From an uncultured Litoreibacter sp. (GTDB lineage: Bacteria; Pseudomonadota; Alphaproteobacteria; Rhodobacterales; Rhodobacteraceae), in assembly GCF_947487515.1 (NCBI RefSeq), contig NZ_CANKWO010000002.1:682001-746000 (forward strand): a stretch of 64,000 bases of DNA, in the 5' to 3' direction. Made by a program: the position numbers and the translations under genes. Position 1 is the stretch's first letter; every line of letters starts with the position of its first letter. Positions 3,430 to 29,950 of this stretch are shown in pieces. Below the pieces are notes generated by a model that was given only the letters and a program-made list of their open reading frames with translations, had not been told where the DNA came from and did not search any database.

Positions 3430-4311
3430 CTAATTTCCCACCAGCAAGCGGCAAACTTCATCAAGTTGTTCAAAGTCTTTGTAAGAGATCGTCACGCGGC
3501 CACCTTCAGTCCCAGCGATGTGATCAATGCTCACTGGCATCTTCAAGGTCGCGGATAGGTCGCCCTCTAACGCCTTGGTGTCAGGATCTTTTTCCGCCTT
3601 CGCTTTCCCTTTAGTAGGTTTTGCTTTCGGGGAATCTGCCTTTGCCAACCGCTCTGTTTCGCGAACGGACAGGCCTTCTTTCACGACCTTTCGAGCAAGT
3701 TCGCTAGCATTTTCAGATGTGATCAAAGCCCGCGCATGACCGCTGGAAAGATCCCCTTGGCGAAGCATCTGAATTACATCTTCCGGTAAACTCAGCAAGC
3801 GCATCAAATTGGCAATGTGACTACGGCTTTTCCCCAAGGCAGTCGCAAGCTGTTCCTGAGTGTGGCCGAATTTATCTTGAAGTTGGCGATAGCCCATCGC
3901 CTCTTCTACGGGGTTAAGATCCGCACGTTGAATATTTTCAATGATCGCTATTTCGAGAACTTCAGTGTCGTTCATCTCGCGAACAACCACCGGAACCTCG
4001 TGAACCTGAGCAATCTGGGCCGCCCGCCAGCGCCGCTCTCCGGCGATAATCTGAAACCCGTCAGAAGTGTTTGGATGCGTGCGCACGATCAGAGGCTGAA
4101 TAATGCCTTTTTCCCTGATAGATTCGGCCAGTTCATCAAGATCAGATTTAACAAAATCACGACGTGGTTGATCCGGATTGGGCTCAATTCGCTCAATTGG
4201 AACGATACGTTCACCCACGGCCCCTTTGGTTTCTTCTTTCTCCGGTGCAGTTACATCAATATCAGCCATCAACGCTGAAAGACCGCGACCAAGTCCTCGT
4301 TTTTCTGCCAT
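3430..4311 (-). CDS. parB: Chromosome partitioning protein ParB (parS-binding CTPase)
   Basis: ParB binds parS near the replication origin, spreads as a CTP-dependent clamp and guides origin segregation with ParA. The 293-aa product starts MAEKRGLGRGLSALMAD, a classic alphaproteobacterial ParB N-terminus with the ParA-stimulating basic patch. It carries the CTP-binding GERRWRA motif at residues 91-97, the ENIQR segment near 125 and a helix-turn-helix (TQEQLATALGKSRSHIANLM). A lysine-rich linker of about 20 residues precedes the dimerisation domain. An upstream in-frame ATG at 4383 would lie inside parA and is rejected. The start is 1 base after the parA stop, so the pair is cotranscribed. Confidence 0.97.
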   Translation of the reverse strand: MAEKRGLGRGLSALMADIDVTAPEKEETKGAVGERIVPIERIEPNPDQPRRDFVKSDLDELAESIREKGIIQPLIVRTHPNTSDGFQIIAGERRWRAAQIAQVHEVPVVVREMNDTEVLEIAIIENIQRADLNPVEEAMGYRQLQDKFGHTQEQLATALGKSRSHIANLMRLLSLPEDVIQMLRQGDLSSGHARALITSENASELARKVVKEGLSVRETERLAKADSPKAKPTKGKAKAEKDPDTKALEGDLSATLKMPVSIDHIAGTEGGRVTISYKDFEQLDEVCRLLVGN

Positions 4312-4312
4312 G

Positions 4313-5113
4313 TTAAGCTCCGTTCTGATGTAAGTGTCGTGAAAGCATTTCAGTCGCCAAAGACTTATACGCAACAGCGCCAAGAGAATTTGGATCGTAG
4401 TTTATGACTGGTAAACCAAATGAAGGCGCTTCACTTAACCTTACATTTCTTGGGATCATTGTCTTAAACACAAGATCTCGTAGGTTTTCACGCACATCCA
4501 ACTCTACTTGGTGGCACAAATTGTTGCGTCTATCATACATAGTTAACACAACACCTTCTAATCTTAGCTTTGAATTTGCGGTCTCTCGTATTTCTCGAAC
4601 GGAAAGCATCAGCTGTGAAAGCCCCTCCAGCGCGAAAAATTCAGCCTGAAGGGGAACCAAGACAGAGTCAGACGCGACCATCGCGTTCAGAGTCAGCAAG
4701 TTCAGTGACGGAGGGCAGTCAATCAGGATGTAATCCAAATCTAGGGCGTCTACATCAGGGCCCGTTAAGGCATCACTAATCAAGAATACCCGCCGCGCAG
4801 TCGAGACCAATTCAAGATCAGCCGAACTAAGATCGGAGTTCGCCGGAGAGATAAACAAATTCGGAACTTCTGTTTTACGAAGTATTTCGGACAGCGGTTT
4901 TTCGTTGAGGAGAAGGTCATATGTAGTATGTTCACGATCACCGTGATCTACACCTAGGCCTGTGGACGCGTTACCTTGTGGATCAAGATCAATCAACGCG
5001 ACGCGCAAGCCCTTTGCTGCCAAGGACGCACCAAGGTTAATTGTGGTTGTTGTCTTCCCCACACCACCCTTTTGGTTTGCGACAGAGATGATCTTAGGAG
5101 GCTTTTTTGCCAT
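4313..5113 (-). CDS. parA: Chromosome partitioning ATPase ParA
   Basis: ParA/Soj-type ATPase that binds DNA non-specifically when ATP-bound and drives movement of ParB-parS complexes. The deviant Walker A motif KGGVGKTT at residues 15-22, the ALIDLDPQGNAS Walker A' and the YILIDCPPSLNLL Walker B region are all visible. The 266-aa length and the lack of an N-terminal DNA-binding extension mark the chromosomal type rather than a plasmid ParA. Its ATG directly follows the rsmG stop codon with no gap, giving a rsmG-parA-parB transcription unit. Confidence 0.98.
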   Translation of the reverse strand: MAKKPPKIISVANQKGGVGKTTTTINLGASLAAKGLRVALIDLDPQGNASTGLGVDHGDREHTTYDLLLNEKPLSEILRKTEVPNLFISPANSDLSSADLELVSTARRVFLISDALTGPDVDALDLDYILIDCPPSLNLLTLNAMVASDSVLVPLQAEFFALEGLSQLMLSVREIRETANSKLRLEGVVLTMYDRRNNLCHQVELDVRENLRDLVFKTMIPRNVRLSEAPSFGLPVINYDPNSLGAVAYKSLATEMLSRHLHQNGA

Positions 5114-5746
5114 TTATGTCGCTCGCTTCAAGCCAGTTATAGCCAGCAAAGCTGACTCGGAATTCGTTGCACTTGTTTGTTTTTCAACATGAAATTCCCA
5201 CATTTGAGATGCCGTGTCCAGTTCGAGCTGATGCTGCGCCCCTTTTAGGAACAGCCCCGTTCCGTCAGCGCTCATATGTGTTTTCGTCATTTCAAATAGA
5301 TCGCTCAACGGCGCCAATGCGCGCGCAGTCACAACATCGGCATTTTGAGAAGGAATATTCTCTACTCGCTCAGCAAAAACCGTAACGTTCAAACCCATTT
5401 CACGTGCGGCGGTAGTTAGAAATGCTGATTTCCGAACATCGGATTCCACTAAGGAAACGCTCAATTCAGGGCGCTTCTCAGTCGCCATCGCCGCAATCAC
5501 TAAGCCTGGAAAGCCACCGCCCGATCCGAAGTCGATCAACCTTTCGGCAGTTTCCGGAATGGCCTGAAAAACTTGTGCAGAATCCAAGAAATGGCGTGAC
5601 CAAATCTGTGAAGCGGTTGATTTGGCAATCAGGTTTATCTTGGACGTCCACTTTATCAGCAGATTTTCATAAACTTGAAGCTTCTCCACTGTTTCACGTG
5701 AAACATTTTGATCTAAAGCGAAGAGTTCCTGCTCACGTGCGCTCAT
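5114..5746 (-). CDS. rsmG: 16S rRNA (guanine-N7) methyltransferase RsmG (GidB)
   Basis: SAM-dependent methyltransferase that makes m7G in the 530 loop of 16S rRNA. The SAM-binding motif [17 protein letters not shown], lies near residue 70, and the N-terminal RHFLDSAQ segment is typical. The 210-aa length is normal. Codons 14-19 (NVSRET) are formed by a perfect parS site, so this gene carries a chromosome-segregation site in its coding sequence. It overlaps mnmG by 4 bases (ATGA) and abuts parA, keeping the conserved mnmG-rsmG-parA-parB order seen next to many bacterial origins. Confidence 0.97.
5690..5705. promoter_or_regulatory. parS centromere site (within rsmG)
   Basis: The 16 bases TGTTTCACGTGAAACA are a perfect palindrome and match the universal bacterial parS consensus exactly. 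The site lies in the 5' part of rsmG and encodes part of NVSRET. It is about 0.6 kb from the start of parA and about 5 kb from the proposed origin. It is the expected loading site for ParB. Confidence 0.95.
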
Positions 5747-7617
5747 CCGACACGCCTCTTATTGGACTTAAGGCGGCCCAGTATAAGCGTAAGCGCTGCT
5801 GGAGTAATCCCATCAACCTTTGCCGCTTGGGCAAGAGATGAAGGCTTCGCACGATTGAGCTTCGCCTTTAACTCGTTTGATAGGCCGACCAGTGAGTCAA
5901 AATCAAAATCATCTTCAATTACAATCGCTTCATCACGCTGAAGAGCTTCAGCATCCTTGTTTTGCCGTCCAATATAGTTGGCATAGAGCGCATCTCTGGA
6001 AATCTGAGTTGAGATTTCAGGCTCGTATGACCCGGCATTCGGCAGCAAAGACGTCAACGCCTTTAGATCAACATCGGGGAAGGATAGCAGTTCAAATGCG
6101 GAACGTCTTTTGCCATCTTTATTGACCCTTAAACCAACCTTCTCTGCTTCTTGAGGCGAAACAAGGACAGCATCCAGATCAGCACGAATGGCATCCAGTT
6201 TCTGTTTCTTAACTTCGAACAGGTGCTGACGCTCTTGGCCCACACAGCCAATCTTCACGCCACGCATGGTTAACCGTTGATCAGCATTATCTGCACGAAG
6301 CGACATGCGAAACTCTGCTCTAGATGTAAACATCCGATATGGTTCAAGCACGCCTCGCGTGGTGAGGTCATCCACCATCACCCCAATATAGGCTTCTGCG
6401 CGGCTAAGAATGAATTCTTCTTTTCTCCGAACTCGATTGGCAGCGTTAACGCCCGCCATGAGACCCTGCGCACCAGCCTCTTCATAACCCGTGGTCCCAT
6501 TGATCTGCCCAGCCAAATACAGGCCTGAAACTGCTCTTAACTCAAGCGTTTGCTTTAGCGCTCTGGGGTCAATGTAGTCATACTCAATCGCATATCCAGG
6601 TTGCAAAATCTTAGCGTTTTCAAGCCCTTGAATGGAATGTACGTAGTTTTCCTGAACTTCGATCGGCAACGAAGTAGAGATTCCATTAGGATAGACTGCG
6701 TTGCTTTGCAGCCCTTCGGGTTCAAGGAATACTTGATGAGACGTTTTGTCAGCAAACCGAACAATTTTATCTTCAATAGATGGGCAGTACCTAGGTCCAA
6801 CCCCGTCGATGTGCCCGCCATACATTGCGGATCGATCTAGATTATCCCGAATTATGTCGTGGGTTTTCTCATTTGTGTGCGTAATGGCGCAGTAAATCTG
6901 TCGCGCGGCAGGCTTTTTCGACATGAAGGAGAATAGTTCAGGCATATCATCGCCCGGTTGCTCTTCCAGCTCCGACCAATTGATCGTGTCACTGGCCAAA
7001 CGCGGTGGAGTACCCGTTTTCAACCGCCCCATATCCACGCCAAAGCTATCAATACGCTCAGCAAGCTTGACGACTGCATCGTCTCCGATCCGGCCACCAG
7101 GCCGCGAAACATCTCCGATGTGAATAACGCCTCGCAAGAATGTCCCAGTGGTTAGAACGACTGCTCCACATTCAACTGTGGATCCATCTTTCAAGCAAAC
7201 ACCGGTTACGCGATCTCCAACCATGGTAAGATCAGAGACTTCCCCCTCAACCACTGTCAAATTGGCTTGGGCTGCAATAAGCGACTGAATCGCCTTACGA
7301 TACAGATCGCGATCCGCCTGAGCCCGCGGCCCTTGAACGGCTGGGCCCTTCCTGCGATTCAACAGTCGAAATTGAATACCAGCAGCGTCTGCAGCCTTCC
7401 CCATTATTCCGTCAAGCGCATCAATTTCGCGCACCAAATGGCCTTTTCCCAACCCGCCAATTGCTGGGTTGCAGGACATAACGCCAATAGTATCAGCCTT
7501 TTGCGTTATCAAAGCAGTGTGCGCGCCAGTTCGGGCGGCAGCGTGAGCAGCTTCCGTACCAGCGTGTCCGCCACCAATGACGACAACATCAAATTTCGAA
7601 TGTTTCACGTGAAACAC
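5743..7617 (-). CDS. mnmG: tRNA uridine 5-carboxymethylaminomethyl modification enzyme MnmG (GidA)
   Basis: FAD-dependent enzyme that, with MnmE, installs the cmnm5U modification at tRNA wobble position 34. The N-terminal dinucleotide-binding motif [13 protein letters not shown], the [14 protein letters not shown]-type segment (here [12 protein letters not shown]) and the C-terminal helical domain are all present. The length of 624 aa is typical. The first residues MFHVKH are translated from a perfect parS site whose ATG is the start codon; this N-terminus is characteristic of Rhodobacterales. mnmE ends 2 bp upstream and rsmG overlaps the 3' end by 4 bases. Confidence 0.98.
7601..7616. promoter_or_regulatory. 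parS centromere site (start of mnmG)
   Basis: A second perfect TGTTTCACGTGAAACA palindrome. It overlaps the mnmG start codon: the first base of the ATG is at 7617 and the rest falls in the palindrome, which is read as MFHVKH. It lies about 1.9 kb from the first parS and about 3.2 kb from the proposed origin. Confidence 0.95.
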
Positions 7618-10325: not shown

Positions 10326-10778
10326 TCAAAACGGCCGAACGATAACCATTACAACAATAACTATCATAAACACCGTCGGCACTTCGTTCATAATCCGATA
10401 GGTACGGCCCGCGCGAATGTTTTCACCACGCTCGAATTCTTTCCGGCGATATCCCAGCCAGTGATGAAACCAAGTCATCCCAAGAACAGCCGCAGCTTTC
10501 ACCCAAGGCCATCCCAGTGACCAATCCACGATCCCCGGCGTGAAAACCAAACAAAGCCCGAATACCCACGTGCTTATCATTGCAGGGTTCATGATCACCC
10601 GCAGAAGCTTGTACTCCATCATTTGAAATAGCTGATCGGTATCAGAACCGACTTCAACTTTCTCTGCATGATGCACAAACAAACGGGGAAGATAGAACAA
10701 ACCTGCCATCCACGAGATCACCGAGATTACATGCAGGCTTTTGGTCCAAGGGTAAATCTCTGCAAGAAAGTCGGTCAT
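10326..10778 (-). CDS. hemJ: Protoporphyrinogen IX oxidase HemJ
   Basis: Integral membrane protein of the UPF0093/HemJ family that oxidises protoporphyrinogen IX to protoporphyrin IX, the penultimate step of heme synthesis. The 150-aa product has about four membrane helices. It contains the family signature KSLHVISVISWMAGLFYLPR with the conserved His16, and a later HHWLGYRRKEF segment. hemH, for the last step, is 30 kb away at 40.9 kb. The ATG at 10778 borders the proposed origin, so the gene is transcribed away from it. Confidence 0.93.
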   Translation of the reverse strand: MTDFLAEIYPWTKSLHVISVISWMAGLFYLPRLFVHHAEKVEVGSDTDQLFQMMEYKLLRVIMNPAMISTWVFGLCLVFTPGIVDWSLGWPWVKAAAVLGMTWFHHWLGYRRKEFERGENIRAGRTYRIMNEVPTVFMIVIVVMVIVRPF

Positions 10779-10917
10779 AAGTGCCTCGCGTTCATTTTAC
10801 CTTAATAAATAAATAAAGAAGAAAGAAAAGATGATGTTGTTAGTAGGTACAGTGGATACTGTGGATCAAAGACTTGTCCACGGTTCTGCGGGATACACGA
10901 AAAAGTTCTTCACAGAT

Positions 10918-10968
10918 AATTTCTGAGTAAAATTAAATATATAAATCAATAAGTTAATGATATTTTTC
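10918..10968. other. AT-rich candidate DNA unwinding element in oriC
   Basis: About 50 bases composed almost wholly of A and T, flanked on both sides by DnaA-box clusters. The surrounding DNA is clearly richer in GC. The composition and placement are those of a duplex-unwinding element. This is inferred from sequence only. Confidence 0.6.
10944..10956 (+). promoter_or_regulatory. IHF-type site in oriC
   Basis: AATCAATAAGTTA fits the IHF consensus WATCAANNNNTTR at every defined position. It lies in the AT-rich part of the proposed origin, where DNA bending by IHF assists opening in other bacteria. One short degenerate match in AT-rich DNA can occur by chance. Confidence 0.5.
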
Positions 10969-10980
10969 GATACTCGAATC

Positions 10981-10989
10981 TGTGGATAA
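10981..10989 (-). promoter_or_regulatory. DnaA box (perfect)
   Basis: TGTGGATAA is the reverse complement of the strong DnaA box TTATCCACA. It directly borders the AT-rich stretch. Confidence 0.8.
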
Positions 10990-11162
10990 ACCCTGTATGA
11001 CTTTGCATAAACCGGTTTCGCTCACAGCCATGTTTTGGAGTACTCACAAGGGATAAGCAGCAGGCCATCTATCGAACAGTGTGGGTAAAGCAGCTTGGTT
11101 ATCTGAACGCAGTGGATAAGACAGGCCAAGCGCAATATATATCCCTAAGGTTTCCCTCAGAG

Positions 11163-11171
11163 TTATCCACA
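11163..11171 (+). promoter_or_regulatory. DnaA box (perfect), overlapping the maf start codon
   Basis: TTATCCACA ends on the A of the maf ATG start codon. DnaA bound here could also affect maf transcription or mark the right edge of the origin. Confidence 0.8.
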
Positions 11172-11770
11172 TGACACGCTCCATTATCCTCGCATCCGGT
11201 TCTGAAACACGGAAGGCAATGCTTCAGCAAGCAGGCGTCGAATTCACCTCTATGCTGGCGCGCATAGATGAAGAAAACATTAAAGCCTCTTTGGTTGCAG
11301 AAGAGGCCACTCCAAGAGACATCGCAGACACCTTGGCCGAGTTCAAAGCGCGGCGTGTCGCCAATAAGCACACAGATGCTTTAGTGATTGGCAGCGATCA
11401 GGTTCTGGAATTCGGGCGAGAGATACTTTCCAAGCCTACCTCCCCTGAAGATGCGATAGCACAGCTCACTAAACTTTCCGGTAAATCGCACAAATTATTG
11501 TCGGCCGTTGTGATCTACCAAGAGGCCAAACCAGTTTGGCGCACCGTTGGTCAGGTTCGCTTAACCATGCGTGTGCTAAGTCCTGACTATATCGAGGGCT
11601 ACGTTGCACGAAACTGGGACGATATTCGCCACAGTGTGGGCAGCTACCAGCTTGAAGCAGAAGGCGCGCGGCTTTTTGCTCGGGTTGACGGAGACTATTT
11701 CACCGTTCTCGGTATGCCGCTATTAGATGTATTAGGGTTTTTAACCATGTCAGGAGCAATAGACGGATGA
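11171..11770 (+). CDS. Maf/YceF-family nucleoside triphosphate pyrophosphatase
   Basis: Maf proteins hydrolyse modified or canonical nucleoside triphosphates and are linked to septum inhibition. The 199-aa protein has the family N-terminus ILASGSETRKAMLQQAGV, the VIGSDQVLEF motif carrying the catalytic aspartate, and a GSYQLEAEGARLF segment. The start codon lies at the edge of the origin with a DnaA box over it and no clear Shine-Dalgarno sequence, so the mRNA may have a very short leader. It overlaps aroE by 4 bases (ATGA), heading a maf-aroE-coaE-dnaQ operon. Confidence 0.93.
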   Translation: MTRSIILASGSETRKAMLQQAGVEFTSMLARIDEENIKASLVAEEATPRDIADTLAEFKARRVANKHTDALVIGSDQVLEFGREILSKPTSPEDAIAQLTKLSGKSHKLLSAVVIYQEAKPVWRTVGQVRLTMRVLSPDYIEGYVARNWDDIRHSVGSYQLEAEGARLFARVDGDYFTVLGMPLLDVLGFLTMSGAIDG

Positions 11771-13188: not shown

Positions 13189-13881
13189 ATGCGCGAAATC
13201 GTACTAGACACAGAAACCACCGGCTTTGAGCCAGGTGAAGGCGACCGCATCGTCGAAATCGGCGCGGTAGAGCTGCTCAACCATATGCCAACCGGCAAAG
13301 TTTATCATCAGTACATCAACCCTGAACGTTCAATGCCGGCGGGCGCATTTGAAGTTCATGGGCTTGGTGACGAATTTCTGCGCGATAAGCCGGTTTTCAA
13401 GAACATTGCTCAGGCGTTTCTGGATTTCGTCGGAGATTCCACGATGGTCATCCACAACGCAGCCTTCGATATGAAATTCCTGAACGCGGAGTTGGGCTGG
13501 GCTAAATTCAAACTGCTTCCGAATGAGCAGGCATTGGACACGTTGGCCATTGCTCGAAAGCGCTTTCCAGGGTCACCCGCGACGTTGGACGCACTTTGCA
13601 GACGGTTTGGTATCGACAACTCTGCGCGCGAAAAGCACGGAGCCCTCCTCGATAGTGAAATTCTAGCAGAAGTGTATCTGGAGCTGATCGGCGGGCGGCA
13701 ACCGGATTTGGTCCTGTCCTCTACGGATGGCGGTGCGGGTCAGGACCGGTCTGCGCCGACTTGGCGTGCCGCGCCTCGGCCAACGCCACTTGCCTCGCGG
13801 ATCACCGAAGAGGAACGCGCCGCCCATCAAACCTTCGTAGACAAGTTGGGCGACGCCGCTTTGTGGAAATCGACGACTTAA
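13189..13881 (+). CDS. dnaQ: DNA polymerase III epsilon subunit (proofreading exonuclease)
   Basis: 3'-5' proofreading exonuclease of the replicative polymerase. The DEDDh residues are visible: Exo I in LDTETTGF (Asp7, Glu9), Exo II in [11 protein letters not shown] and Exo III in [12 protein letters not shown] linker rich in Gly, Pro and Ala follows, and then a C-terminal segment that would contact the alpha subunit. The 230-aa length matches alphaproteobacterial DnaQ. It is last in the maf-aroE-coaE-dnaQ operon; its stop codon overlaps that of secB on the other strand by 4 bases. Confidence 0.97.
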
Positions 13882-14378
13882 GCGTCGGCAGTTTTTGCCG
13901 CAGCTTCGGCCTGCGCGCGGCGCGCGAGTTCGTTGCGGTAAAGCGCTAGGAAGTCGATTGTTTCCAAGTTCAACGGCGGGAAGCCACCATCACGGGTCAC
14001 ATCCGATACGATGCGGCGCATGAACGGGAACAACATGCGCGGGCATTCGATCATCAAGTAGGGGTGCAATTGCTCTTCTGGGACGTTCTCGACTTGGAAA
14101 ATGCCAGTGTACTCCAGTTCCAGCAGGAAGATCGGCTTACCTTCTCCGGTGGTTTTGGCGTTCACTTCCAGTTTGGTTGTAACCTCAAACTGGTTTTCTT
14201 CGCCGCGCTTTTTCGCGTCGAGGTTCACCTGAACCTGAATGTCCGGTGTTTGGTCACCTTCGCCAAGGCCCTTTTGGGCTGCGATGTTTTCAAAGGACAT
14301 GTCTTTGATGAACTGAGCCAGAACTTGCATGCGGGGTGGTGTTGGGGCGGCGGGTGCCGCGCCGTTTTCTTCGGCCAT
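13878..14378 (-). CDS. secB: Protein-export chaperone SecB
   Basis: Tetrameric cytoplasmic chaperone that keeps preproteins unfolded and delivers them to SecA, which is encoded at 44.8 kb. The 166-aa sequence has the alphaproteobacterial Ala/Pro-rich start, [15 protein letters not shown], the [21 protein letters not shown] strand region and [16 protein letters not shown]. The gene is convergent with dnaQ and follows fxsA at a distance of 69 bp in the divergent arrangement typical of this neighbourhood. Confidence 0.97.
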
Positions 14379-16748: not shown

Positions 16749-17342
16749 ATGAAACGCGGAAAAAGGCAGCTGAACCCCGAAGAGCAAGAGCTTTGGGCGC
16801 GCGTCACCGAGACGGCAATTCCGATGAAGCTGCATAAGAAGGTAAAATTTGCAGAAGAACCGGTGAAGGCCCGTGTGCCGGATCCTGTATCCCCGCGATC
16901 CATCAAGTCGTTCAAAATGGGTGAGCGCGCAGCGTCAAAAACAGCAAAACATAACCTGTCCCCCAGCTTGGAACAGCAGTTTGCCAAGTCTCATGTTGCG
17001 ATGGATAAGAAAGCCTTCACGCGACTGAAGCAGGGCAAGCTTAGCCCTGAAGGGCGCCTAGATTTACACGGAATGACGCTGGATCAGGCGCACCCGCGGC
17101 TAAACCGCTTTATTTTGGATGCGCATGCTCAAGGTAAGCGGCTGGTTTTGGTGATTACCGGAAAAGGAAAAAGCCGCGATGACGGTGGCCCGATCCCTAC
17201 CCGTTTGGGTGTGTTGCGCCATCAGGTTCCGCAGTGGTTTCAACAACACCCCTTGAAGCCACTTATCCTTCAGGTCTCGCAAGCCAGTTTGAAGCATGGC
17301 GGGTCAGGGGCGTATTATGTCTATCTGCGCCGGATCAGATAG
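16749..17342 (+). CDS. Smr/MutS2-type endonuclease domain protein
   Basis: A 197-aa protein with a basic N-terminal region and a C-terminal Smr domain (about residues 95-197), a fold with nicking nuclease activity in several homologues. The motif LDLHGMTLDQAHPRL, the VITGKGKSRDDGGPIPTRLGVLRHQVPQWF stretch with its GKG loop, and the final HGGSGAYYVYLRR are typical of the COG2840 group. It is the last gene of the tim44-mltA-smr run. Its 3' end overlaps the 3' end of the opposite MFS gene by 39 bp. Confidence 0.92.
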   Translation: MKRGKRQLNPEEQELWARVTETAIPMKLHKKVKFAEEPVKARVPDPVSPRSIKSFKMGERAASKTAKHNLSPSLEQQFAKSHVAMDKKAFTRLKQGKLSPEGRLDLHGMTLDQAHPRLNRFILDAHAQGKRLVLVITGKGKSRDDGGPIPTRLGVLRHQVPQWFQQHPLKPLILQVSQASLKHGGSGAYYVYLRRIR

Positions 17343-18548
17343 CCGCATTCGCGCGGCCCGCAGCCCGACGAAGGCCAAGGCGGTGGCGATCACCATATAG
17401 ATGGCGACGCCACTCATTTGTCTGCTGTAGTCGACGCCGTAATCAATGATTACCCCCGTCAACCCGGGCCCTACCGCAGAGCCAAAAACCATGATTGCAG
17501 TTGCCATGGCTTTGATGCTGCCCAGATGCCGCGTGCCGAAAAACTCGGCCCAGAAAGCAGACGGAAGGGTGGATTGCATACCAGAAGTCATCGCAAAGAG
17601 GGCAATCCCGATTGCTGCAACCAGCAGCGAATTGCTTTGTGAGAATATCAAAAAACCAAGTGCCAGAGGCAAGGTGTAGACGGCCATCATCCGGCCCGTT
17701 CCAAAGCGGTCAATTGCAAATCCGGAAGCAATCATCGAGCAAACCGCAACACCTGTATAAACAGGGAAAAGCTGAACCAGATCAAAGTGGCTCCACCCTT
17801 TCACCTCGGCCAAATGAACCTGCAAAAAGAAGAACGCCGTGCCAAATGCGGGCGGGCCTAACAAAACGGGCACGATCATCCAGAACGTCGGAGACCTGAA
17901 CACCTGCATGCGGGTCCAGTGCATATTGTCCATTCCGGCTACTTGATTGTCAGCCGCGGAAGATTGCGGTGTGCGTTCCTGTTTTAACAGTCGAAAGATC
18001 ACTGGCGACAGGACGATCAGCACCCCCGCAGCCACCAGCCAAGAGCTGCGCCAACCGATTAAACCCATCAAGGCCACAAACAAGATTGGCAGCGTTGCCT
18101 CTGCAATCGAAAAGCCAAAACTCGCCACCGCCAAAGCCCGCCCGCGCGCCGCCACGAACCAACGCGCCATCGCGGTGCTGGCGACATGGGTCGACATCCC
18201 CTGCCCCATCAAGCGTAAGACAAATATCAACGCCACAAGCATCGGCACCGACGACACCAACGCCATCGAGACACAGGCAAACGCGAGGATAAGTAGCACA
18301 AAAGGCCCCAACACGCGGACCCGAAACCTGTCGGTCAATGCGCCCGCCCAAATCATCGTCGCCGCTGATCCAAGCGTCCCTAGCATGTAGATCCCGCCCC
18401 AAGTGGCATGGGTCAGGTCAAACTCTGCTCGGATTTCGCCGGCAAATATCGATAAGAAGAAGGTCTGCCCAAATGAAGAAGCGAATGTCAAAACCAGACC
18501 GGCGCTTAGCCAGTTCAGGTTGCTGCGGATAAACCGGATTGTGTCCAC
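17304..18548 (-). CDS. MFS transporter
   Basis: A 414-aa major facilitator superfamily protein with about 12 predicted membrane helices in two halves joined by a charged loop near residue 200 (LLKQERTPQSSAADNQ). The substrate cannot be read from the sequence; the layout resembles the MFS groups of oxalate/monocarboxylate or drug transporters. The start is GTG at 18548, sharing a base with the upstream TAG (TAGTG), so it is coupled to the lipoprotein hydrolase gene. The end overlaps the convergent smr gene by 39 bp. Confidence 0.85.
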   Translation of the reverse strand: MDTIRFIRSNLNWLSAGLVLTFASSFGQTFFLSIFAGEIRAEFDLTHATWGGIYMLGTLGSAATMIWAGALTDRFRVRVLGPFVLLILAFACVSMALVSSVPMLVALIFVLRLMGQGMSTHVASTAMARWFVAARGRALAVASFGFSIAEATLPILFVALMGLIGWRSSWLVAAGVLIVLSPVIFRLLKQERTPQSSAADNQVAGMDNMHWTRMQVFRSPTFWMIVPVLLGPPAFGTAFFFLQVHLAEVKGWSHFDLVQLFPVYTGVAVCSMIASGFAIDRFGTGRMMAVYTLPLALGFLIFSQSNSLLVAAIGIALFAMTSGMQSTLPSAFWAEFFGTRHLGSIKAMATAIMVFGSAVGPGLTGVIIDYGVDYSRQMSGVAIYMVIATALAFVGLRAARMRLSDPAQIDIIRP

Positions 18549-19639
18549 TAGCGGGCCACTACAGGAGACAGAATAAGTTCCGTGACATTTTGCACCGACA
18601 AAATGGTTCCAGGAAGCAGGCCCGTGCGCCCGCCATCCCCCGATAATGCGGAGTCCAAGTCCGGAATTTGCCCCAACAACTTCAGCAACGCAGCAGAGCG
18701 TGCAGTGGCAAAATGATTTGTTCCGCCTTCGCTATAAGCCGTCACATCAATGTAAGTGATCTCGTAATCGGAAATCTCGGACACATCGGTTAGCCTGCCA
18801 AGGCGGTTTTTCTGACCGGTCAACCGTTCGATCAAGCGCAGCGCCCTATCCTTTTTGGACGAGAAGATAATGAACGGATCCGGCAGTTCACCAATAGCGT
18901 CAGCCTGCGTTTTGAACAGGTCCAAGTCCAGATCGGGCGACATCAGCACCACTCCGCCAATGCGGTTCAACACTTTTGTGTTGCCTGAAATACCAAGCTC
19001 TCGCAGGGTCTCCATTGTCACCATTGATCCAAGCGAATGTGCGACCAAAATGATGTTATTGACGTTGGACTTTGACACTTCCTCAATCATCCGGCGCAAA
19101 CCGTCGCGGGCAAACAGTGCGCTGTCGCGGTCATAGGCATACCCCAGCGGGTTGGCGGCGGACGGCCAAGAATAAGACATCACTACACCCGGCAAGCCCA
19201 TGTCATGGCTCATCTGTGCAATGCGGTACACGCCATCGCTGAACCGGTTGTTGAACCCGTGCACGAAGATAATGACGTCTCGGTTTTTGGAATTTGCACC
19301 CGCAAGCGCCTTGTTCAAATCAGAGCGCAACTCAGGGCCGCCACGATAGGATTTGGTGTTAGACACCAAGAAGTGTTTCTGCGGGTTTGGCTTGCTGTTT
19401 GGCCATTCAATGTTGCCAGCTTCATGTGCTGGCGGAATGGAGACATCGATCAACCCGTAGTGCGACTGCCGCGATCGTTTGCTGCCGAACGGCAACTGGT
19501 CAGTTTGGCGAGTCGTGGCGAAGAAAACAGGGCGCAAAGTGGCGGTTTGCTCTCCCTCCGGTAGTCGCGCAAAGCCACCTGAATGAGTACAGGCAGACAT
19601 CACCAAGGTGACTACAAAAAGAAGAATTCTAGCCTTCAT
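18548..19639 (-). CDS. DUF900-family alpha/beta hydrolase lipoprotein
   Basis: A 363-aa predicted outer- or inner-membrane lipoprotein with an alpha/beta-hydrolase fold. The signal MKARILLFVVTLVMSAC ends in the lipobox MSAC. The segment DVIIFVHGFNNRFSDGVYRIAQ and the nucleophile elbow VAHSLGSM, followed by later Asp and His residues, match the DUF900/COG4782 group. The substrate is unknown. An in-frame ATG five codons upstream (19654) would break the signal peptide pattern and overlap hslU further. It lies between hslU and the MFS gene and shares its last base with the GTG start of the latter. Confidence 0.87.
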   Translation of the reverse strand: MKARILLFVVTLVMSACTHSGGFARLPEGEQTATLRPVFFATTRQTDQLPFGSKRSRQSHYGLIDVSIPPAHEAGNIEWPNSKPNPQKHFLVSNTKSYRGGPELRSDLNKALAGANSKNRDVIIFVHGFNNRFSDGVYRIAQMSHDMGLPGVVMSYSWPSAANPLGYAYDRDSALFARDGLRRMIEEVSKSNVNNIILVAHSLGSMVTMETLRELGISGNTKVLNRIGGVVLMSPDLDLDLFKTQADAIGELPDPFIIFSSKKDRALRLIERLTGQKNRLGRLTDVSEISDYEITYIDVTAYSEGGTNHFATARSAALLKLLGQIPDLDSALSGDGGRTGLLPGTILSVQNVTELILSPVVAR

Positions 19640-19643
19640 GTCA

Positions 19644-20966
19644 CTACAATACATACCTGCTGAGATCAGCTGACTTGCTCAACTCACCAAGGTGCTGCTC
19701 CACAAATTCGGCATTTACCACAACTTCGTCCCCAGATCGGTCCGGTGCCGTAAAGCTAAGCTCTTCGAATACCCGTTCCATCACCGTATAAAGCCTGCGT
19801 GCTCCGATGTTTTCTACGGATTGGTTTACCTCGGCCGCGATACGCGCAAGGGCCGCGATACCTTCATCGGTGAAGGAGACGGTGACCTCTTCGGTCCCCA
19901 TAAGGGCTGAATACTGGCGGGTAAGCGCGTTATCCGTTTCGGTCAAAATACGCACGAAGTCGTCTTCTGTGAGGGCGCGCAACTCCACGCGAATGGGCAA
20001 GCGCCCTTGCAACTCTGGTAACAAATCCGATGGCTTGGCAATGTGAAAAGCGCCCGAGGCGATGAATAGTACATGGTCGGTTTTTACTGGCCCATGCTTG
20101 GTTGAAACCGTCGTGCCCTCGATCAAAGGCAGCAGATCACGCTGAACGCCTTCACGACTTACATCAGCACCACGGGCGTCTGCACGGGCGCAAACCTTGT
20201 CGATCTCATCAAGGAAGACGATGCCATTTTGTTCAACGGCCTCAATTGCGTTCTGTGTGACGGTCTCTTGATCCAGCAGCTTGTCCGCTTCGTCAGCGAC
20301 CAAAACATCATAGGAATCCGATACCTTCATTTTGCGCTTGCTGGTCTTGCCGCCCATCGCTTTGCCGAACAAATCGCCAAGGTTCATCATGCCAGCCCCG
20401 CCCGCGCCCATACCGGGTTGGCCGGGAACCTCAAACATCTGAAACGGGTTCCCACCGCTGTTGTCGGCGACATCCAGTTCGATTTCCTTGTCGTCCAACA
20501 CGCCATCGCGGAGCTTCTTGCGGAACATTTCGCGGGTACCTTCGCGCGACTCCGGTCCGGCCAATGCGTCGATTACACGCTCTTCTGCGGCTTCATGCGC
20601 TGCGGCTTTTACGTCTTCGCGCATATGCTCGCGGGTCATGACAATCGCCGCATCAACCAAATCGCGCACGATCTGCTCCACATCACGGCCCACATAGCCC
20701 ACCTCTGTGAACTTTGTGGCCTCGACCTTCAAAAACGGTGCACGGGCCAATTTTGCCAAACGACGGGAAATCTCTGTTTTGCCCACACCCGTTGGCCCAA
20801 TCATAAGGATGTTCTTCGGGTATACCTCGTCGCGTAGATCATCTGCCAACTGCTTACGACGCCAGCGGTTGCGCAAAGCTACGGCAACGGCGCGTTTGGC
20901 GTCGTTTTGGCCGATGATAAAGCGGTCCAGCTCAGACACTATTTCGCGTGGGGTCAGGTCGGTCAC
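19644..20966 (-). CDS. hslU: HslU ATPase subunit of the HslUV protease
   Basis: AAA+ unfoldase that feeds substrates to the HslV peptidase. The 440-aa sequence opens with [33 protein letters not shown]. It has the Walker A GPTGVGKT, the pore-loop GYVGRDVE, the I-domain between about 110 and 240 with a Gly/Met-rich insertion ([16 protein letters not shown]), and the Walker B FLDEIDKV. The C-terminal LSRYVL is the HslV-docking tail. It is not adjacent to hslV: a plus-strand DM13 gene and a DUF2157-like gene lie between them. Confidence 0.98.
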
Positions 20967-21127
20967 GTTGGCATCCTTTTAGGTTCGGGAGTGTTTTAGA
21001 CATATGACCACGGCCCCGCAACTTGAAGGGCGGTTTTCACAGGAAGTGACGTTTCCGTGTAAGGGACTATCGCAGATGCGGATTTCAGAGAATACTCCGC
21101 CCATCGCATTAACTTATGGAGCACCCC

Positions 21128-21511
21128 ATGATTACTCGTCGTTCAATTCTTCGCGGCGCAATTGCCGTTTCGACCGTTGCTGCAATGCCTGCATTTGCGG
21201 GTGGTCACGGCCGCATTGGTAAATTCAAAGGCGCTAGCAACCACGTAACGACCGGTCGCGCAGAACTGGTAAAATCCGGCAAAGGCGGCACGGTAGAGCT
21301 GCTGGGCGATTTTACCTTTGATGGCGCGCCAGATCCGAAAGTTGCGCTGGGAAAGGACGGCTTCGATCCCAAGACACTTATGGGCGCACTGAAGTCGAAC
21401 AAAGGCGCATCTACTTACAAATTGCCAAAAGGCATCAACCCAGACGACTACAATGAAGTCTGGATCTGGTGTGAAAAGTTCAACGTTCCGTTGGGCGTCG
21501 CCAAGTTGTAA
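21128..21511 (+). CDS. DM13-domain protein with Tat-type signal
   Basis: A 127-aa exported protein. The N-terminus MITRRSILRGAIAVSTVAAM has a twin-arginine motif (TRRSILR), a hydrophobic stretch and a likely cleavage after AFA. The rest is one DM13 domain: GTVELLGDFTFDGAPDPKVA, then YKLPKGINPDDYNEVWIWC and EKFNVPLGVAKL, with the conserved single Cys. DM13 domains are proposed to take part in redox reactions; the Tat route would fit a protein folded around a cofactor. The ATG at 21128 has GGAG six bases upstream. Its stop codon abuts the stop of the opposite DUF2157-like gene. Confidence 0.82.
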   Translation: MITRRSILRGAIAVSTVAAMPAFAGGHGRIGKFKGASNHVTTGRAELVKSGKGGTVELLGDFTFDGAPDPKVALGKDGFDPKTLMGALKSNKGASTYKLPKGINPDDYNEVWIWCEKFNVPLGVAKL

Positions 21512-22600
21512 TTACTCCGACACCGCCAGCCCGTCCTCATAAGGCGGCAGGCGTTGTTTTCCGGGGAAGTTCGGCAACAAGCCCAGCAACCATGCACGGG
21601 CTTGCGTCCAGAACGCCCCTAGCGAGGTCACGAACAGGCCAAGCACCAGCATTGTGACGACAGGGGCCCAATCGGTCCCTGTTTCACGAATGGCAGATGC
21701 CAAAAGCAATCCCATGTAAACGAGGCCTGCGGTCAAAAAGCTGCGGCGGTCAATGATGACGGCCAACAAGGTGAACAGCGCTAGAACGACGATCGCAAGG
21801 CTGGTGCCAATTGTGCCGCCCATCTGGTAGTTTGACATGACCAAAGTGTTCACCAACGCAGGTGCCGCAAGGATATGAAGCCAAAACGCGGATGCGGACT
21901 TGCGGCTAACGCGGTGCGGGTCCTGAAGGTCGAAGCGTAGGGCGGCGATGAAGGCGATAACCCCGAAGATCAACGTACCTACAGCCAAAGAGGGCTCATT
22001 CCTAAGATCAAAAAAGTCGGTGAGATTGTTAAAGACAGTAGCTCGTGACGGCGTTGTGGCGTCAACAATACCTGTCATCAGCAAAATACCAAATAACCCC
22101 AACAGTAGCATCGCGAATGGCAATTTGAAAAACCGGTAGTATAGCGCCATGCCCGCCATTCCAATGATGCCGACGATCATGGCGTTCTGGGGCGGCGCAG
22201 GGGTGCTTAAGTCGTCATAAATCACCGCATAGATTACCGCTGTGAGGCTAAGGGCAAAGGAGATGCTAAGCGCGATTGAGGGCAGCGACATGCGCCGCCT
22301 TTTGGTGAAATAAAGCGCAAGCGCCCACGATAGCGCCAATGCCACCAACGGTACAAATGCAACGTCGCCCAGTAATGCAGACAGGCTCAATAGACCTGTC
22401 ATTAGCAACCCCAAACCGACAGTAACAAAAATTTCAGCAAAGCCTTTGAACAGCTCGAACGGTTCATCATCGCCGATCATATTGGCGCGGTAACCCTGCC
22501 TTTGATCTGACAGGATCATCAGCTTGCTGGCTTGTGTCTCGTCCAACACACCGGATGACACCGCTGCGCGAAGGTCATCGCGCGATACTCCCTTATCCAC
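21512..22600 (-). CDS. DUF2157-like polytopic membrane protein
   Basis: A 362-aa membrane protein with a short soluble N-terminus ([22 protein letters not shown]), which resembles the cytosolic start of DUF2157 proteins, and about 10 hydrophobic segments. The function is unknown. The start overlaps the hslV stop: GTG at 22600 lies 7 bases after GGAG and is preferred, with TTG at 22603 as the alternative. The overlap with hslV implies translational coupling, so it should be produced together with the HslV peptidase. Confidence 0.75.
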
Positions 22601-23150
22601 CAATTGTCTCCACGGTCAGGTTGCCGTTGGTATATACGCATATGTCGGCGGCAATTTTCATCGCCTCTCGTGCGACGGTTTCGGCGTCTTTGTCTGTACC
22701 CATCAACGCGCGGCCTGCGGCCAATGCGAAGTTCCCGCCGGATCCGATAGCGGTGACGTCATGTTCTGGCTCCAAGACGTCCCCTGCGCCGGTGATCACG
22801 AACAAGTCTGTACCGTCGGTGACGATTAACATGGCCTCTAGGTTCTTCAGATATTTATCGGTGCGCCAGTCTTTTGCGAGTTCCACCGCTGCGCGCGCCA
22901 ATTGACCGGGAACGGCCTCAAGTTTGCTTTCTAGGCGCTCCAGCAACGTAAAGGCGTCTGCGGTGGAGCCTGCAAAACCTGCAACGACGTCCATCCCACC
23001 CGGTGATAGGCGCCGTACCTTGCGTGCTGTGCCCTTCATCACGGTTTGACCGACAGAAACCTGCCCGTCCCCTGCGATGACGACTTTGCCGCCTTTGCGG
23101 ACGCCGATGATGGTGGTGCCGTGCCAGCCCGGGAATGTGTCGTCAGACAT
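22593..23150 (-). CDS. hslV: HslV peptidase subunit of the HslUV protease
   Basis: Proteasome-beta-like threonine peptidase. The 185-aa product begins [20 protein letters not shown]. The usual HslV start is a Met followed directly by TTI; here about 10 extra residues precede Thr-Thr (GTTIIGVRK), as in many Rhodobacterales, so processing is needed to expose the catalytic Thr. The segments [13 protein letters not shown] and [16 protein letters not shown] are family signatures. AGGAGAG lies upstream of the ATG at 23150. The downstream gene overlaps its 3' end. Confidence 0.96.
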
Positions 23151-23325
23151 GCTGCTCTCCTGTGTTCGTTGGGGACATATAGTCATGGTTAAGCGGGGGC
23201 GCAAAGAGGAGACAGGGGGGCAAGCGTACTGTGTGGCCCATCGCCTTCCGACTTTCCCCGTAAATTTTCTACAAATTTAAGGTAAAATCAGATCATTCAA
23301 ACCTCTAGATACAGAGACTAGGAAG

Positions 23326-24516
23326 ATGCCCGATCTATTACTGGGCGGCATTGCGATAAATGAGGTCCTCGTCGACCCCAATGGCGCAAACAACTTTGAC
23401 ACGGATGGTAGCGGTGCCGCACGCGGCGCTGACGAATTTCTTGAGCTCATTAATACCTCTGGGAGTGCAATAGACATCTCTGGTCTGGAGCTGTGGGACG
23501 CCGGACGTGACAACTGGTTTACCTTTCCACCTGGCAGCATTCTTGAGGCAGGCGCAGTGGCCGTTGTTGTGCGGAATGTGCAGTCAGGGGGTAGCCTGCC
23601 CAGCGTGTCGGGCGACAACTTGGCCTTTGATGCCGATTTCGGAAGCGGGGTGTTCAACAACGGGGCCGACAATCTAGTGGTCTATGACCCCGTAAACGAC
23701 GAATTCATTCAAGCAACCTATAACGGCGACACGTTGGATGACCCGACGACGGGGCCAAACTACGCTGGCTTTTCGAGCACAGCGACACGCGTCGGCTCGG
23801 GGGAAGACTTCGGCAATGATCAAGACGGGTTTTCAATCCAACGCAGCGGGGCAGGATTTACCAATGACGCAACCCCAACCCCCGGATCATCAAACGTTTG
23901 CTTTGCGTCCGGTACGTTGCTTGAAACACAAAACGGGTTCCAAACCATAGAAACCCTGCGCGCAGGCGATTTGGTCAAAACCCGTGATGCGGGCCTGCAA
24001 CCCATCCGTTGGATATTTGCGCGCCACGTAAGTCGCGCCGAGGTGAGAGCCGATGAGACCCTTGCACCCCTTCGGATTGCCGCAGCAACGCTACATCCCG
24101 ATCAATCGACTTTACGAGTGTCTCGTCAGCATAGGTTGCTGGTGCGAGGTAAGGTAGCGCAGCGTATGTTCGGTGAAAGTGAAGTTCTTGTGCCAGCCAA
24201 GGACCTTTTGGGGTGTTCTGGTGTTGCCTTAGACAAACCAAAGGCTGCGTTTTACTATTTTCACGTCCTTTTGGATGAACACCATGTCCTGAATGCCAAT
24301 GGCGTCGCGGCAGAAAGTTTGTTTTTGGGCGCGGAGACGATGAATATCTTGACCGACGCTGCGCGCGAAGAGCTAGAGGTGCTGTTTCCCCAGCACCACG
24401 AGGAAACGCTGCGGCGCGAATTTGAAGCTGCACGAAAGCTGAGATCAGGTGCGCGGGCAAGATGGATGATCGAGCGGTTTGAAAAGAACTCAAAGGTGGC
24501 TTTGGTCAGCTTCTAG
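23326..24516 (+). CDS. Lamin-tail-domain plus Hint-domain protein
   Basis: A 396-aa two-domain protein. Residues 5-190 resemble a lamin-tail (LTD) beta-sandwich: INEVLVDPNG, DEFLELINTSGSAIDISGLELWD, and the GFSIQRSG end. Residues 191-340 are a Hint_2 domain starting at Cys192 (VCFASGTLLET), with IETLRAGDLVKTRDAG, QPIRWI, SRQHRLLV and DEHHVLNANGV. Hint domains self-cleave in hedgehog and inteins; whether this one does is unknown, and no clear C-terminal His-Asn is seen. There is no signal peptide, so a type I secretion route is possible. A charged helical tail follows. The intergenic region before it is 175 bp. Confidence 0.82.
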   Translation: MPDLLLGGIAINEVLVDPNGANNFDTDGSGAARGADEFLELINTSGSAIDISGLELWDAGRDNWFTFPPGSILEAGAVAVVVRNVQSGGSLPSVSGDNLAFDADFGSGVFNNGADNLVVYDPVNDEFIQATYNGDTLDDPTTGPNYAGFSSTATRVGSGEDFGNDQDGFSIQRSGAGFTNDATPTPGSSNVCFASGTLLETQNGFQTIETLRAGDLVKTRDAGLQPIRWIFARHVSRAEVRADETLAPLRIAAATLHPDQSTLRVSRQHRLLVRGKVAQRMFGESEVLVPAKDLLGCSGVALDKPKAAFYYFHVLLDEHHVLNANGVAAESLFLGAETMNILTDAAREELEVLFPQHHEETLRREFEAARKLRSGARARWMIERFEKNSKVALVSF

Positions 24517-24523
24517 TTCGCAC

Positions 24524-24557
24524 AAAAAAGGGCCCCGACATTGCTGTACGAGGCCCG
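24524..24557 (-). terminator. Intrinsic terminator after infB
   Basis: On the minus strand an 8-bp stem (GGGCCTCG pairing with CGGGGCCC, including one G-T pair) with an 11-base loop is followed by a run of six T. It lies 22 bases after the infB stop and should end the rimP-nusA-ylxR-infB transcript. The same stem could slow transcription from the LTD-Hint gene on the other strand. Confidence 0.75.
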
Positions 24558-24578
24558 TTTGAATTCTTGTTGTGAAGC

Positions 24579-27080
24579 TTAGTCCAGCGTGCGCTCGACC
24601 TCTTCGCGGGTGAAAATCTCGATGACATCTGCCGCACGAATGTCGTCGTAGGCTTCAAACGCCATGCCGCACTCTTGGCCGGATTGAACTTCTGGCACTT
24701 CGTCTTTGAAGCGCTTCAGGGTTTTCAATGTGCCTTCGTGGATCACAACGTTGTCGCGTAGCAAACGGACCCCAGCAGAGCGGCGGGCCACCCCTTCGGT
24801 CACGATACAACCAGCAACTTTGCCGACGCCGGTAACCTTGAAGACTTCTTTGATCTCGGCGTAGCCGATGAAGTTTTCTTTGATCTCGGCAGACAGCAGA
24901 CCGGAGGCAGCTTGCTTCACGTCATCCACAAGGTCGTAGATGACCGAGTAGTACCGGATCTCCACGCCTTTTTGGTTGGCGGTGTTGCGGGCCGGTGTGT
25001 TGGCACGAACGTTAAAGCCAAACACTGGTGCGCCGGAAGCCTCGGCCAAGCCGATGTCGCTTTCGGTGATCGCACCAACGCCAGAGTGAAGAACACGAAC
25101 GCGAACTTCATCGTTGCCGATTTTCTCCATCGCTTGAACGATCGCTTCGGCAGACCCTTGAACGTCGGCCTTCACCAAGATTGGCATCTCGGTCAGGTTT
25201 TCGTCGTCTTTGGCTTTTGCCATCAGCTGCTCAAGGGTTGTTGCGGCACCAGCGGCGGCGCGTTTGTCCTTGGCGGCCTTTTCGCGGTATTCAGCGATTT
25301 CACGAGCCTGAGCTTCAGTATCCACCACGTTCAAAACGTCACCAGCTTCGGGCGTACCGTTGAGGCCAAGAACCTCGACCGGAACAGATGGGCCAGCTTC
25401 TTTGATGCGGTCGCCTTGGTCGTTGATCAGCGCACGAACCTTACCGTACTGCTCACCCACAACGAAGATGTCGCCTTGGCGAAGTGTACCATTTTGAACC
25501 AGAACAGTCGCAACAGGGCCACGACCCACATCAAGCTGCGCCTCGATCACGGCACCAGAGGCGGCGCGATCGGGGTTGGCTTTGAGTTCCAGAATTTCTG
25601 ACTGAAGCGCTATGGCCTCAAGCAATTGGTCCAGACCTTGGCCGGTTGTCGCAGACACTTCAACGTCTTGGACGTCACCGGACATTTTCTCAACGATCAC
25701 TTCGTGCTGAAGCAAATCGGTGCGAACTTTGTCTGGGTTGGCGTCATGTTTGTCGACCTTGTTGATCGCAACAATCATCGGCACCTTCGCCGCTTGGGCG
25801 TGGTTAATAGCCTCAATGGTTTGCGGCATAACGGCGTCGTCAGCAGCCACAACCAGAACAACGATGTCAGTTACCTGAGCACCACGGGCACGCATCGACG
25901 TAAACGCCGCGTGACCCGGAGTATCAAGGAACGTCAGCAGGCTGCCATCTTGGTCAACCTGATAAGCACCGATGTGCTGGGTGATACCGCCAGCTTCACC
26001 CGCAGTAACGCGAGCGTTGCGGATCGCATCCAGCAGGGATGTTTTACCGTGGTCAACGTGGCCCATGATCGTGATCACTGGGGCGCGTGGCGACAGGTCT
26101 TTTTCGTCGTCGTCGATCTGTGTGATGACGTCTTCAACATCCGCATCGGATACGCGAACGACCTTGTGGCCAAACTCTTCGATGATCAGCTCAGCGGTGT
26201 CAGCGTCAATTGTTTGTGTCTGCGTGGCCATGATGCCGTTTGTCATCAAAGCTTTCACAACATCTGCAACGCGCTCCGACATGCGGTTTGCCAACTCAGA
26301 AACAACGATGGCTTCTGGCAGTTGAACGTCACGAACAACCTTTTCGCGCTCAACTGATCCACCCATTGCCTTTTGACGCGCACGCTCTTGCTTGCGCTTC
26401 ATGGCTGCCATGGATTTGTGACGGCCATCGCCGCCGCGCAAAGCTTGGTTCAACGTCAACTTGCCAGAGCGGCGGGCGTCGTCGTTGCGGTTCTTTGCGT
26501 TTTTGTTGTCGCGATCGTCACGATCACGGCGGGCAGGTGTCGGGGCAGCTTTGCCGCCGCCACGTGGGCCGGATGGTGCAACTGCAGGCTCGCCAGGAGC
26601 AGCCGCCGCTGCGGGGGCAGCCGCTGGTGCTGCTGCGCGGGCTTTGGCTTCTTCAGCTTCGCGTTTCTTGCGTGCCTCTTCTTCGGCCTTGGCCTTCAAA
26701 GCGTCTTCGCGTTCTTTTTCCTGACGCTCTTTGGCTTCAGCCTCGGCGCGGCGACGTTCGCGGCGTTCCTGCTGTTCGGCCTCTTCGCGTGCACGGCGTT
26801 CCGCGTCTGCTGCTTCTTGCTCCTTTGCGGCCTGAAGCGCCTTCATGCGGCGTTCCATTTCCGCATCAGAGATGCCCGCAGGGCGTTTGGAAGGATCGCC
26901 CACCGAAGGGGATCCAGTAATCGAAGGCTTCGCGCCACCGGGTTTGGGCACAACCACGCGCTTACGCTTGGTTTCCACCACTACATTCTTGGTGCGCCCG
27001 TGGCTGAAGCTTTGCTTCACGTTGCCGGGGCGTGCGCCAGAAGAAAGGCCTAGGGGTTTTTTACCGTCACTATCGCTCAT
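24579..27080 (-). CDS. infB: Translation initiation factor IF-2
   Basis: GTPase that brings initiator tRNA to the ribosome. The 833-aa protein has an N-terminal IF2 segment, then a long low-complexity charged region (about residues 74-175) of Ala/Glu/Arg repeats with an Ala/Pro stretch, and a second IF2N region near 205-320. The G domain has G1 GHVDHGKT at 340-347, DTPGHAAF and NKVDK, and domains II to IV follow. The start overlaps ylxR by 4 bases. It is the last gene of the rimP operon. Confidence 0.98.
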
Positions 27081-27712: not shown

Positions 27713-27722
27713 GCCGGGATCC

Positions 27723-29933: not shown

Positions 29934-29950
29934 AACTTCCTTAGAGGCAC

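Follow-up and report, generated by a model that had tools for sequence, protein, structure and literature searches.

A very probable chromosomal replication origin between hemJ and maf in Litoreibacter

In a Litoreibacter genome, the divergent intergenic region between hemJ and maf very probably serves as the chromosomal oriC of this marine member of the Rhodobacteraceae, with DnaA binding and firing being predictions from the DNA sequence. The stretch analysed here (the window) comprises 64,000 bases, positions 682001-746000 of contig C2 in an eight-contig assembly of a 3.34-Mb genome, and the putative origin occupies positions 10779-11171 of it. The gap proper is 392 bases long (10779-11170), and its right-hand DnaA box extends one base farther, onto the A of the maf ATG. 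An earlier note had proposed an origin at this place, and the proposal is supported by the density of DnaA boxes, a switch in GC skew, nearby parS sites, and a length and consensus order of parts that are conserved across the family. We consider it highly probable that the gap is the sole DnaA-dependent origin of the main chromosome. It is almost certainly an ordinary oriC, a kind of site that is already well known and whose relatives keep parts in the same places, and the only part that might reward further work is a family-wide unwinding module. The origin would thereby be fixed for the genus Litoreibacter, with a map at base resolution (unwinding tract, order of the boxes, IHF site) that is common to the family, and such a map is of use for the construction of oriC plasmids and the orientation of draft genomes.

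The DnaA box cluster and its surroundings

The features are listed below, with conservation given for 94 distinct gaps from related loci; the per-position counts of boxes with two mismatches have no shuffle control.

3430-4383, minus: parB (TIGR00180, PF02195, PF17762)
4313-5113, minus: parA (PF13614 (AAA_31) passed; NCBIfam ParA-type models below cut-offs)
5690-5705: perfect parS inside rsmG (parS search)
7601-7616: perfect parS at the 5' end of mnmG (parS search)
10326-10778, minus: hemJ, left neighbour (TIGR00701 above cut-off)
10779-11171: very probable oriC, the hemJ-maf intergenic region (392 bases) and the first base of maf (supported by the density of boxes, the switch in skew, and a length and consensus order kept across 94 distinct gaps)
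10800-10836: likely DNA unwinding element, an AT/purine tract ending GATGATG, outside the box cluster (conserved alignment block; unstable)
10843-10846, plus: conserved GTAG, which with a four-base spacer resembles the first DnaA-trios (alignment)
10851-10859, minus: weak DnaA box GTATCCACT, forming a tandem pair with the 10860 box (at most two mismatches at this position in 27 of 94 gaps)
10860-10868, minus: DnaA box TGATCCACA, R1-like, adjoining the unwinding element (at most two mismatches in 70 of 94 gaps, at most one in 51)
10874-10882, plus: weak DnaA box TTGTCCACG (at most two mismatches in 24 of 94 gaps)
10926-10968: central AT-rich segment (the 50-mer of the earlier note), which overlaps the window's least stable 40-mer and 50-mer
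10944-10956, plus: IHF-like site AATCAATAAGTTA, a perfect match to WATCAANNNNTTR (core bases C, A, T and T kept in 86, 91, 85 and 90 of 94 gaps)
10981-10989, minus: perfect DnaA box TTATCCACA (at most two mismatches in 65 of 94 gaps, at most one in 51)
11080-11088, minus: DnaA box TTACCCACA (at most two mismatches in 15 of 94 gaps)
11111-11119, minus: DnaA box TTATCCACT (at most two mismatches in 18 of 94 gaps)
11163-11171, plus: perfect DnaA box TTATCCACA, an R4-like right edge over the maf start codon (in 63 of 94 gaps the final eight bases differ from TTATCCAC at no more than one position)
11171-11770, plus: maf, right neighbour (TIGR00172 above cut-off; PF02545)

Both perfect TTATCCACA boxes that had been read in the gap (10981-10989, minus; 11163-11171, plus) are present, as are the at least three one-mismatch boxes (10860-10868, 11080-11088 and 11111-11119, all minus). 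The 393 bases hold five boxes with no more than one mismatch to TTATCCACA, a cluster of the oriC type: 5,000 first-order Markov models of the gap contain 0.13 such boxes on average and three at most, and none of the 5,000 contains five. Setting aside stretches that overlap the gap, the window contains no 393-base stretch with more than two, and neither do 720 kb of the genome sampled as 36 stretches of 20 kb. TTATCCACA occurs 19 times in the 3.34-Mb genome compared with 18 times for a reversed control, and the perfect boxes of the gap are its only pair less than 1 kb apart. If one mismatch to the looser TTATNCACA is allowed, 10906 and 11002 qualify too; the TTATNCACA count for the whole window is 36 where 32.5 are expected, and 28 of 100 shuffles reach 36. 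This window-wide count is close to chance, and what stands out is the clustering.

The claim that this is the only gap above 300 bases holds in that no other stretch of more than 300 bases lacks an ORF of at least 100 aa (the two next longest have 291 bases), and it depends on the ORF cut-off, there being six other uncovered stretches of more than 250 bases at 150 aa. A search of the genome for a second copy showed the gap sequence to be single-copy, and an Rfam scan of the window returned nothing at the gathering score, so that the conservation of the gap is not explained by a known RNA family.

Among the genes around the gap, rsmG, mnmG, mnmE, rho, hemJ, maf, aroE, coaE and dnaQ all score above the curated cut-off of the model of the same name, as do parB and secB, and parA, parB, rsmG, mnmG, mnmE and rho all lie to the left of the gap. 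The genes beside the gap were said to run outward on both sides, which is correct for the adjacent operons (hemJ minus, maf plus) but not farther out, where secB (13878-14378) and the next gene are on the minus strand. The partition system expected near an origin was also found, with parA, parB and two perfect parS sites left of the gap. The sites at 5690 and 7601 are the only perfect parS sites in the genome and lie 3-6 kb from the gap, whereas 0.06 sites within two mismatches are expected in the window; one more parS-like site, with two mismatches, lies at 350 kb in C2. We note that both perfect parS sites are within coding sequence.

Conservation of the hemJ-maf gap

The genome has its nearest relatives in its own genus. 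A search for Maf yielded 80 named loci, nearly all of Rhodobacteraceae genera, and 30 from the genus and family of the window, its own locus included. At 105 of these 110 loci hemJ lies divergently beside maf, and at five (L075, L078, L079, L080 and L104) it was not found there. At all five, namely four Roseicyclus loci and that of genome G029 (seen again as L198), the gap is flanked by rho and maf and has one to five boxes with no more than one mismatch. Removal of identical sequences left 94 distinct gaps, with that of the window among them; the two locus sets share species and were merged only where the gaps are identical, and as the sequences are related the counts are not independent. The gaps are 354-433 bases long (median 406) and average 2.70 boxes with at most one mismatch versus 0.11 in shuffles, the family counts omitting the right-edge box, whose ninth base belongs to maf. 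Individual boxes are degenerate in the relatives, a point against the origin, with 60 of the 94 gaps having no perfect box and four having no box within one mismatch. The alignment consensus gives the order, from left to right, of an unwinding block, a box, the IHF core, a box and the right-edge box. Some box positions of the family are absent from the window, including one on the plus strand near 10886 (42 of 94 gaps), another on the plus strand at 11151 (45 of 94), and further positions that are occupied in 17 to 28 of the 94 gaps.

One locus of the search, L055 (JAPOKD010000541.1), has a hemJ-maf gap of the Rhodobacteraceae type on a 4.5-kb contig that is assigned to a Planctomycetota MAG; the contig is probably mis-binned.

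Sixteen further loci include three from the same family and 13 from 13 other alphaproteobacterial families, the latter chosen by hand, and not at random, from 40 genomes of the same class. The densest 400 bases of the same-family loci L198, L199 and L204 hold five, six and two boxes respectively. Eight of the 13 out-of-family loci (L190, L191, L194, L195, L196, L200, L201 and L202) have at least three boxes in a 400-base stretch upstream of maf and no more than about 1.4 kb away from it. L205 is ambiguous, with three boxes 3 kb upstream, and no cluster of three boxes is present in the 8.6 kb fetched for each of L192, L193, L197 and L203, which counts against the origin; L193 also has no maf in this search. 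The hemJ-maf origin also suggests that the origin of alphaproteobacteria stayed in place although hemE, normally its neighbour, is not adjacent, and in some lineages neither is hemJ.

DnaA boxes occur in DnaA-controlled promoters too, and the gap could be a DnaA-regulated divergent promoter region of hemJ and maf, or a DnaA-titration site, rather than an origin. The two divergent genes do need promoters in the gap, and the skew by itself locates an origin only to within about 20 kb. We nevertheless regard such a role in place of an origin as very improbable: neither the window nor the 720 kb of sampled genome has another cluster of at least three boxes, the five loci without hemJ beside maf still have a rho-maf gap with one to five boxes, and the skew switch, the parS sites and the class-wide synteny converge on the gap, which counts against promotion or titration alone. 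The gap is better read as an origin.

GC skew and replication asymmetry

A cumulative GC-skew minimum at this site had been put forward as a check on the origin, with an outcome that is only partly as predicted. A minus-to-plus switch is present at the locus, with a resolution of about 20 kb, and there is none elsewhere in the sampled parts of four contigs; but the raw cumulative minimum of a 104-kb stretch is displaced to window position 29,867, where it reaches -1181 compared with -1074 at the gap, 107 counts lower and 19 kb away. To the left of the window in C2 the skew is negative in all 13 sampled 20-kb stretches (-0.023 to -0.074). In the window it is -0.078 for the first 10,970 bases, -0.006 for 10,971-32,000 and +0.025 for 32,001-64,000, and three sampled stretches of C2 to the right have values of +0.018, +0.046 and -0.001. 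The skew of the first 21 kb right of the gap is thus near zero (-0.006) and not positive, which counts against an origin at the gap. The long ORFs of the right arm at 17.3-35.8 kb (17304-35805) are mostly on the minus strand, and the displacement of the raw minimum is probably an effect of gene orientation.

Skew at third codon positions was calculated by gene strand from a mechanical, largely non-overlapping set of ORFs of at least 150 aa. It is negative for both strands left of the gap, at -0.16 (three plus genes) and -0.15 (seven minus) in the window and -0.116 (90 plus) and -0.037 (125 minus) in the sampled parts of C2 farther left. Values of -0.01 (seven plus) and -0.02 (five minus) are found at 11.2-21 kb, and of +0.11 (14 minus) and -0.09 (one plus gene) at 17.3-36.9 kb, a range that overlaps the preceding one. 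Beyond 36.9 kb in the window the skew is +0.08 (11 plus) and +0.14 (13 minus), and in the sampled parts of C2 to the right it is +0.028 (26 plus) and +0.075 (29 minus). These values indicate that the change starts at about the gap and is finished within the next tens of kilobases. They bear on the possibility that the true origin is at the lowest point of the cumulative skew, near 29.9 kb, which would take the raw minimum at 29,867 at face value. The third-position skew of the right arm is already seen in the 14 minus-strand genes at 17.3-36.9 kb, with only the single plus gene departing from it, and there is no box cluster near 29.9 kb; we think an origin there extremely improbable, and keep the gap as its place.

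An origin-type switch is seen in C2 alone among the sampled parts of four contigs. C1 has a plus-to-minus change at about 0.14-0.36 Mb, the sign of a terminus, and all samples are positive in C4 and in C3, which was sampled to 460 kb of its 792 kb, 330 kb short of its end; the contigs beyond these four, C5-C8, amount to about 100 kb together by subtraction. In a congener (G002), 40 stretches of a 3.57-Mb contig are negative in 10 of 11 cases before 600 kb and in nine of nine from 2.52 Mb, and positive in 17 of 18 from 660 kb to 2.42 Mb; the two stretches at 600-640 kb are slightly negative, and maf is at 608 kb. At this sampling the congener has one minimum, at the hemJ-maf locus, and a single maximum roughly half a chromosome distant from it, but the continuous cumulative curve for 580-640 kb falls past maf to the end of the stretch, which counts against an origin at the gap. 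Rhodobacteraceae often have several replicons, and the assembly is in eight contigs, four of them (C1-C4) with skew samples; that the gap belongs to a chromid or plasmid, as the origin of a secondary replicon, is still the least probable reading. C2 is 853 kb long and carries dnaA as well as the core genes next to the gap, the 3.57-Mb contig of the congener includes this same locus, and the scores of RepA- and RepB-type models for the adjacent parA and parB are far under the cut-offs.

Unwinding tract, IHF-like site and comparison with known origins

The AT-rich 50-mer pointed out earlier overlaps the least stable 50-mer of the window, which starts at 10916, but it lies inside the box cluster and over the IHF-like site, and is probably not the unwinding element. 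The least stable 40-mer of the window starts at 10928, and the second least stable 40-mer and 50-mer both start at 10794, the central segment being a weaker duplex than the left tract in the window. Among the 94 gaps of the family, 57 have their least stable 30-mer in the left tract (its centre at 10800-10839) and 37 have it in the central segment. As far as can be told from sequence alone, 10800-10836 is an edge AT element that is both unstable and conserved. GATGATG is present somewhere in the gap in 68 of 94 cases compared with 2.25 in shuffles, and outside the family it is absent from all six stretches examined from the 13 out-of-family loci. According to the relevant passages of a review, unwinding elements adjoin the box cluster and are never inside it (PMC4285127). 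On the strength of this rule and the 30-mer counts, the hemJ-side tract at 10800-10836 is in our judgement a considerably more probable unwinding element than the central segment.

The strict DnaA-trio rule, as given in the passages describing it (PMC8287927), calls for a DnaA box, a spacer of up to 16 bases and at least three contiguous trios. It is satisfied somewhere in the gap in 80 of 94 cases and in 22-32 of 94 over ten rounds of shuffling, a weak control in that shuffling dilutes AT-rich tracts. At the left tract it is satisfied in 34 of 94 gaps, whereas 30 permuted boxes give a mean of 1.3 and a maximum of 11; a box with at most two mismatches is by itself found there in 87 of 94 gaps. 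The top-ranked trio match is near 10980 in 17 gaps and near 10850 in 15, and in the window the left tract conforms only through a box with two mismatches, a higher-scoring match lying elsewhere in the gap. Rhodobacteraceae origins may have a fixed unwinding module outside the box cluster (an AT/purine tract ending GATGATG, a variable spacer, GTAG and tandem boxes) that is opened as in B. subtilis by DnaA-trios, in a broken or family-specific register, with an IHF bend like that of E. coli being kept. We offer this tentatively and think it somewhat unlikely; if true, it would make a mixed origin in which the trio and IHF-bend mechanisms are testable side by side.

The IHF-like site at 10944 is perfect to WATCAANNNNTTR, which we take to be the IHF consensus, and its core is conserved in the relatives. 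A perfect consensus is present in 11 of 94 gaps (2.2 in shuffles), in 10 of them at the 10944 position. Sites with one mismatch are found in 71 of 94 gaps and 38.7 in shuffles, a weak count, and 48 of 94 gaps have a site with no more than one mismatch at the 10944 position; this positional conservation is better evidence than the totals. No full CtrA site (TTAA-N7-TTAA) is present in the gap, and seven of the 94 gaps have one. A loose CtrA rule has one match in the window, at 10802, and matches in 25 of 94 gaps as against 11.4 in shuffles, an excess that may be caused by AT tracts.

These parts are open to a mechanism modelled on E. coli and Caulobacter as portrayed in the passages concerned (PMC4285127, PMC1914354). 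DnaA-ATP would occupy the boxes, and an IHF bend at 10944-10956 would join the left boxes (10851-10882) with those at 10981-11171; a DnaA filament would then melt the hemJ-side tract at 10800-10836, where the helicase would be loaded. One fork would exit via rho-mnmEG-parAB and the other via maf-aroE-coaE-dnaQ, and ParB on the adjacent parS sites would segregate the new origins.

Origins of 101 genomes of the same family have been predicted from TTATCCACA-type boxes, the minimum of GC disparity, a local minimum in GC and nearness to parAB, with coordinates assigned and internal anatomy not described in the main-text passages (PMC6699656). Among the papers listed in a literature search whose coverage is without most subscription journals or supplements, we found no account of the internal anatomy of a Rhodobacteraceae oriC.

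For E. coli, the element names (R1, R4, IHF site, unwinding tract) are those we presume to belong to the positions of the record. The oriC of E. coli K-12 (NC_000913 3925744-3925975) has the same order as that of Litoreibacter, namely an unwinding tract, an R1-type box on the minus strand, IHF, boxes, and a perfect plus-strand box at the right edge. They differ in size (393 bases in Litoreibacter, 232 in E. coli), in GATC sites (one compared with 11) and in polarity: the adjacent boxes read TTATCCACA-like on the T-rich strand of the unwinding tract in Litoreibacter, and on the strand opposite to it in E. coli. The polarity of the Litoreibacter tract was also compared with a sequence that we take to be that of the B. 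subtilis origin. Tandem boxes, a short spacer, a trinucleotide-like tract and the same strand polarity are common to Litoreibacter and the basal unwinding system (BUS) of B. subtilis, as far as the latter is set out in the source passages; unlike in that system, three contiguous trios are reached at the Litoreibacter tract through the weaker box only (PMC8287927).

In several other alphaproteobacterial families such gaps are bordered, as in Litoreibacter, by hemJ and rho to one side and by maf-aroE-coaE-dnaQ to the other. Caulobacter itself presumably has this same wider neighbourhood beside its origin, Cori. In the Litoreibacter genome hemE is on contig C3 (G000:C3:95676-96695), and PF03618, which we take to represent the COG1806-type (ppsR) genes, has no match anywhere. 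The Cori of Caulobacter crescentus, in the passages that describe it, is over 400 bp long, has five DnaA boxes, one IHF site and five CtrA sites, and is located between hemE and COG1806 (PMC1914354). Like Cori, the Litoreibacter origin is an intergenic gap with DnaA boxes, one IHF-like site and an AT-rich region; unlike Cori as described there, it lacks a full CtrA site where Cori has five (PMC1914354), and it is flanked by hemJ and maf and not by hemE and COG1806. With hemE on another contig and PF03618 unmatched, the comparison with the Caulobacter flanks indicates that the origin has probably kept its position while the flanking hemE and COG1806-type genes have left.
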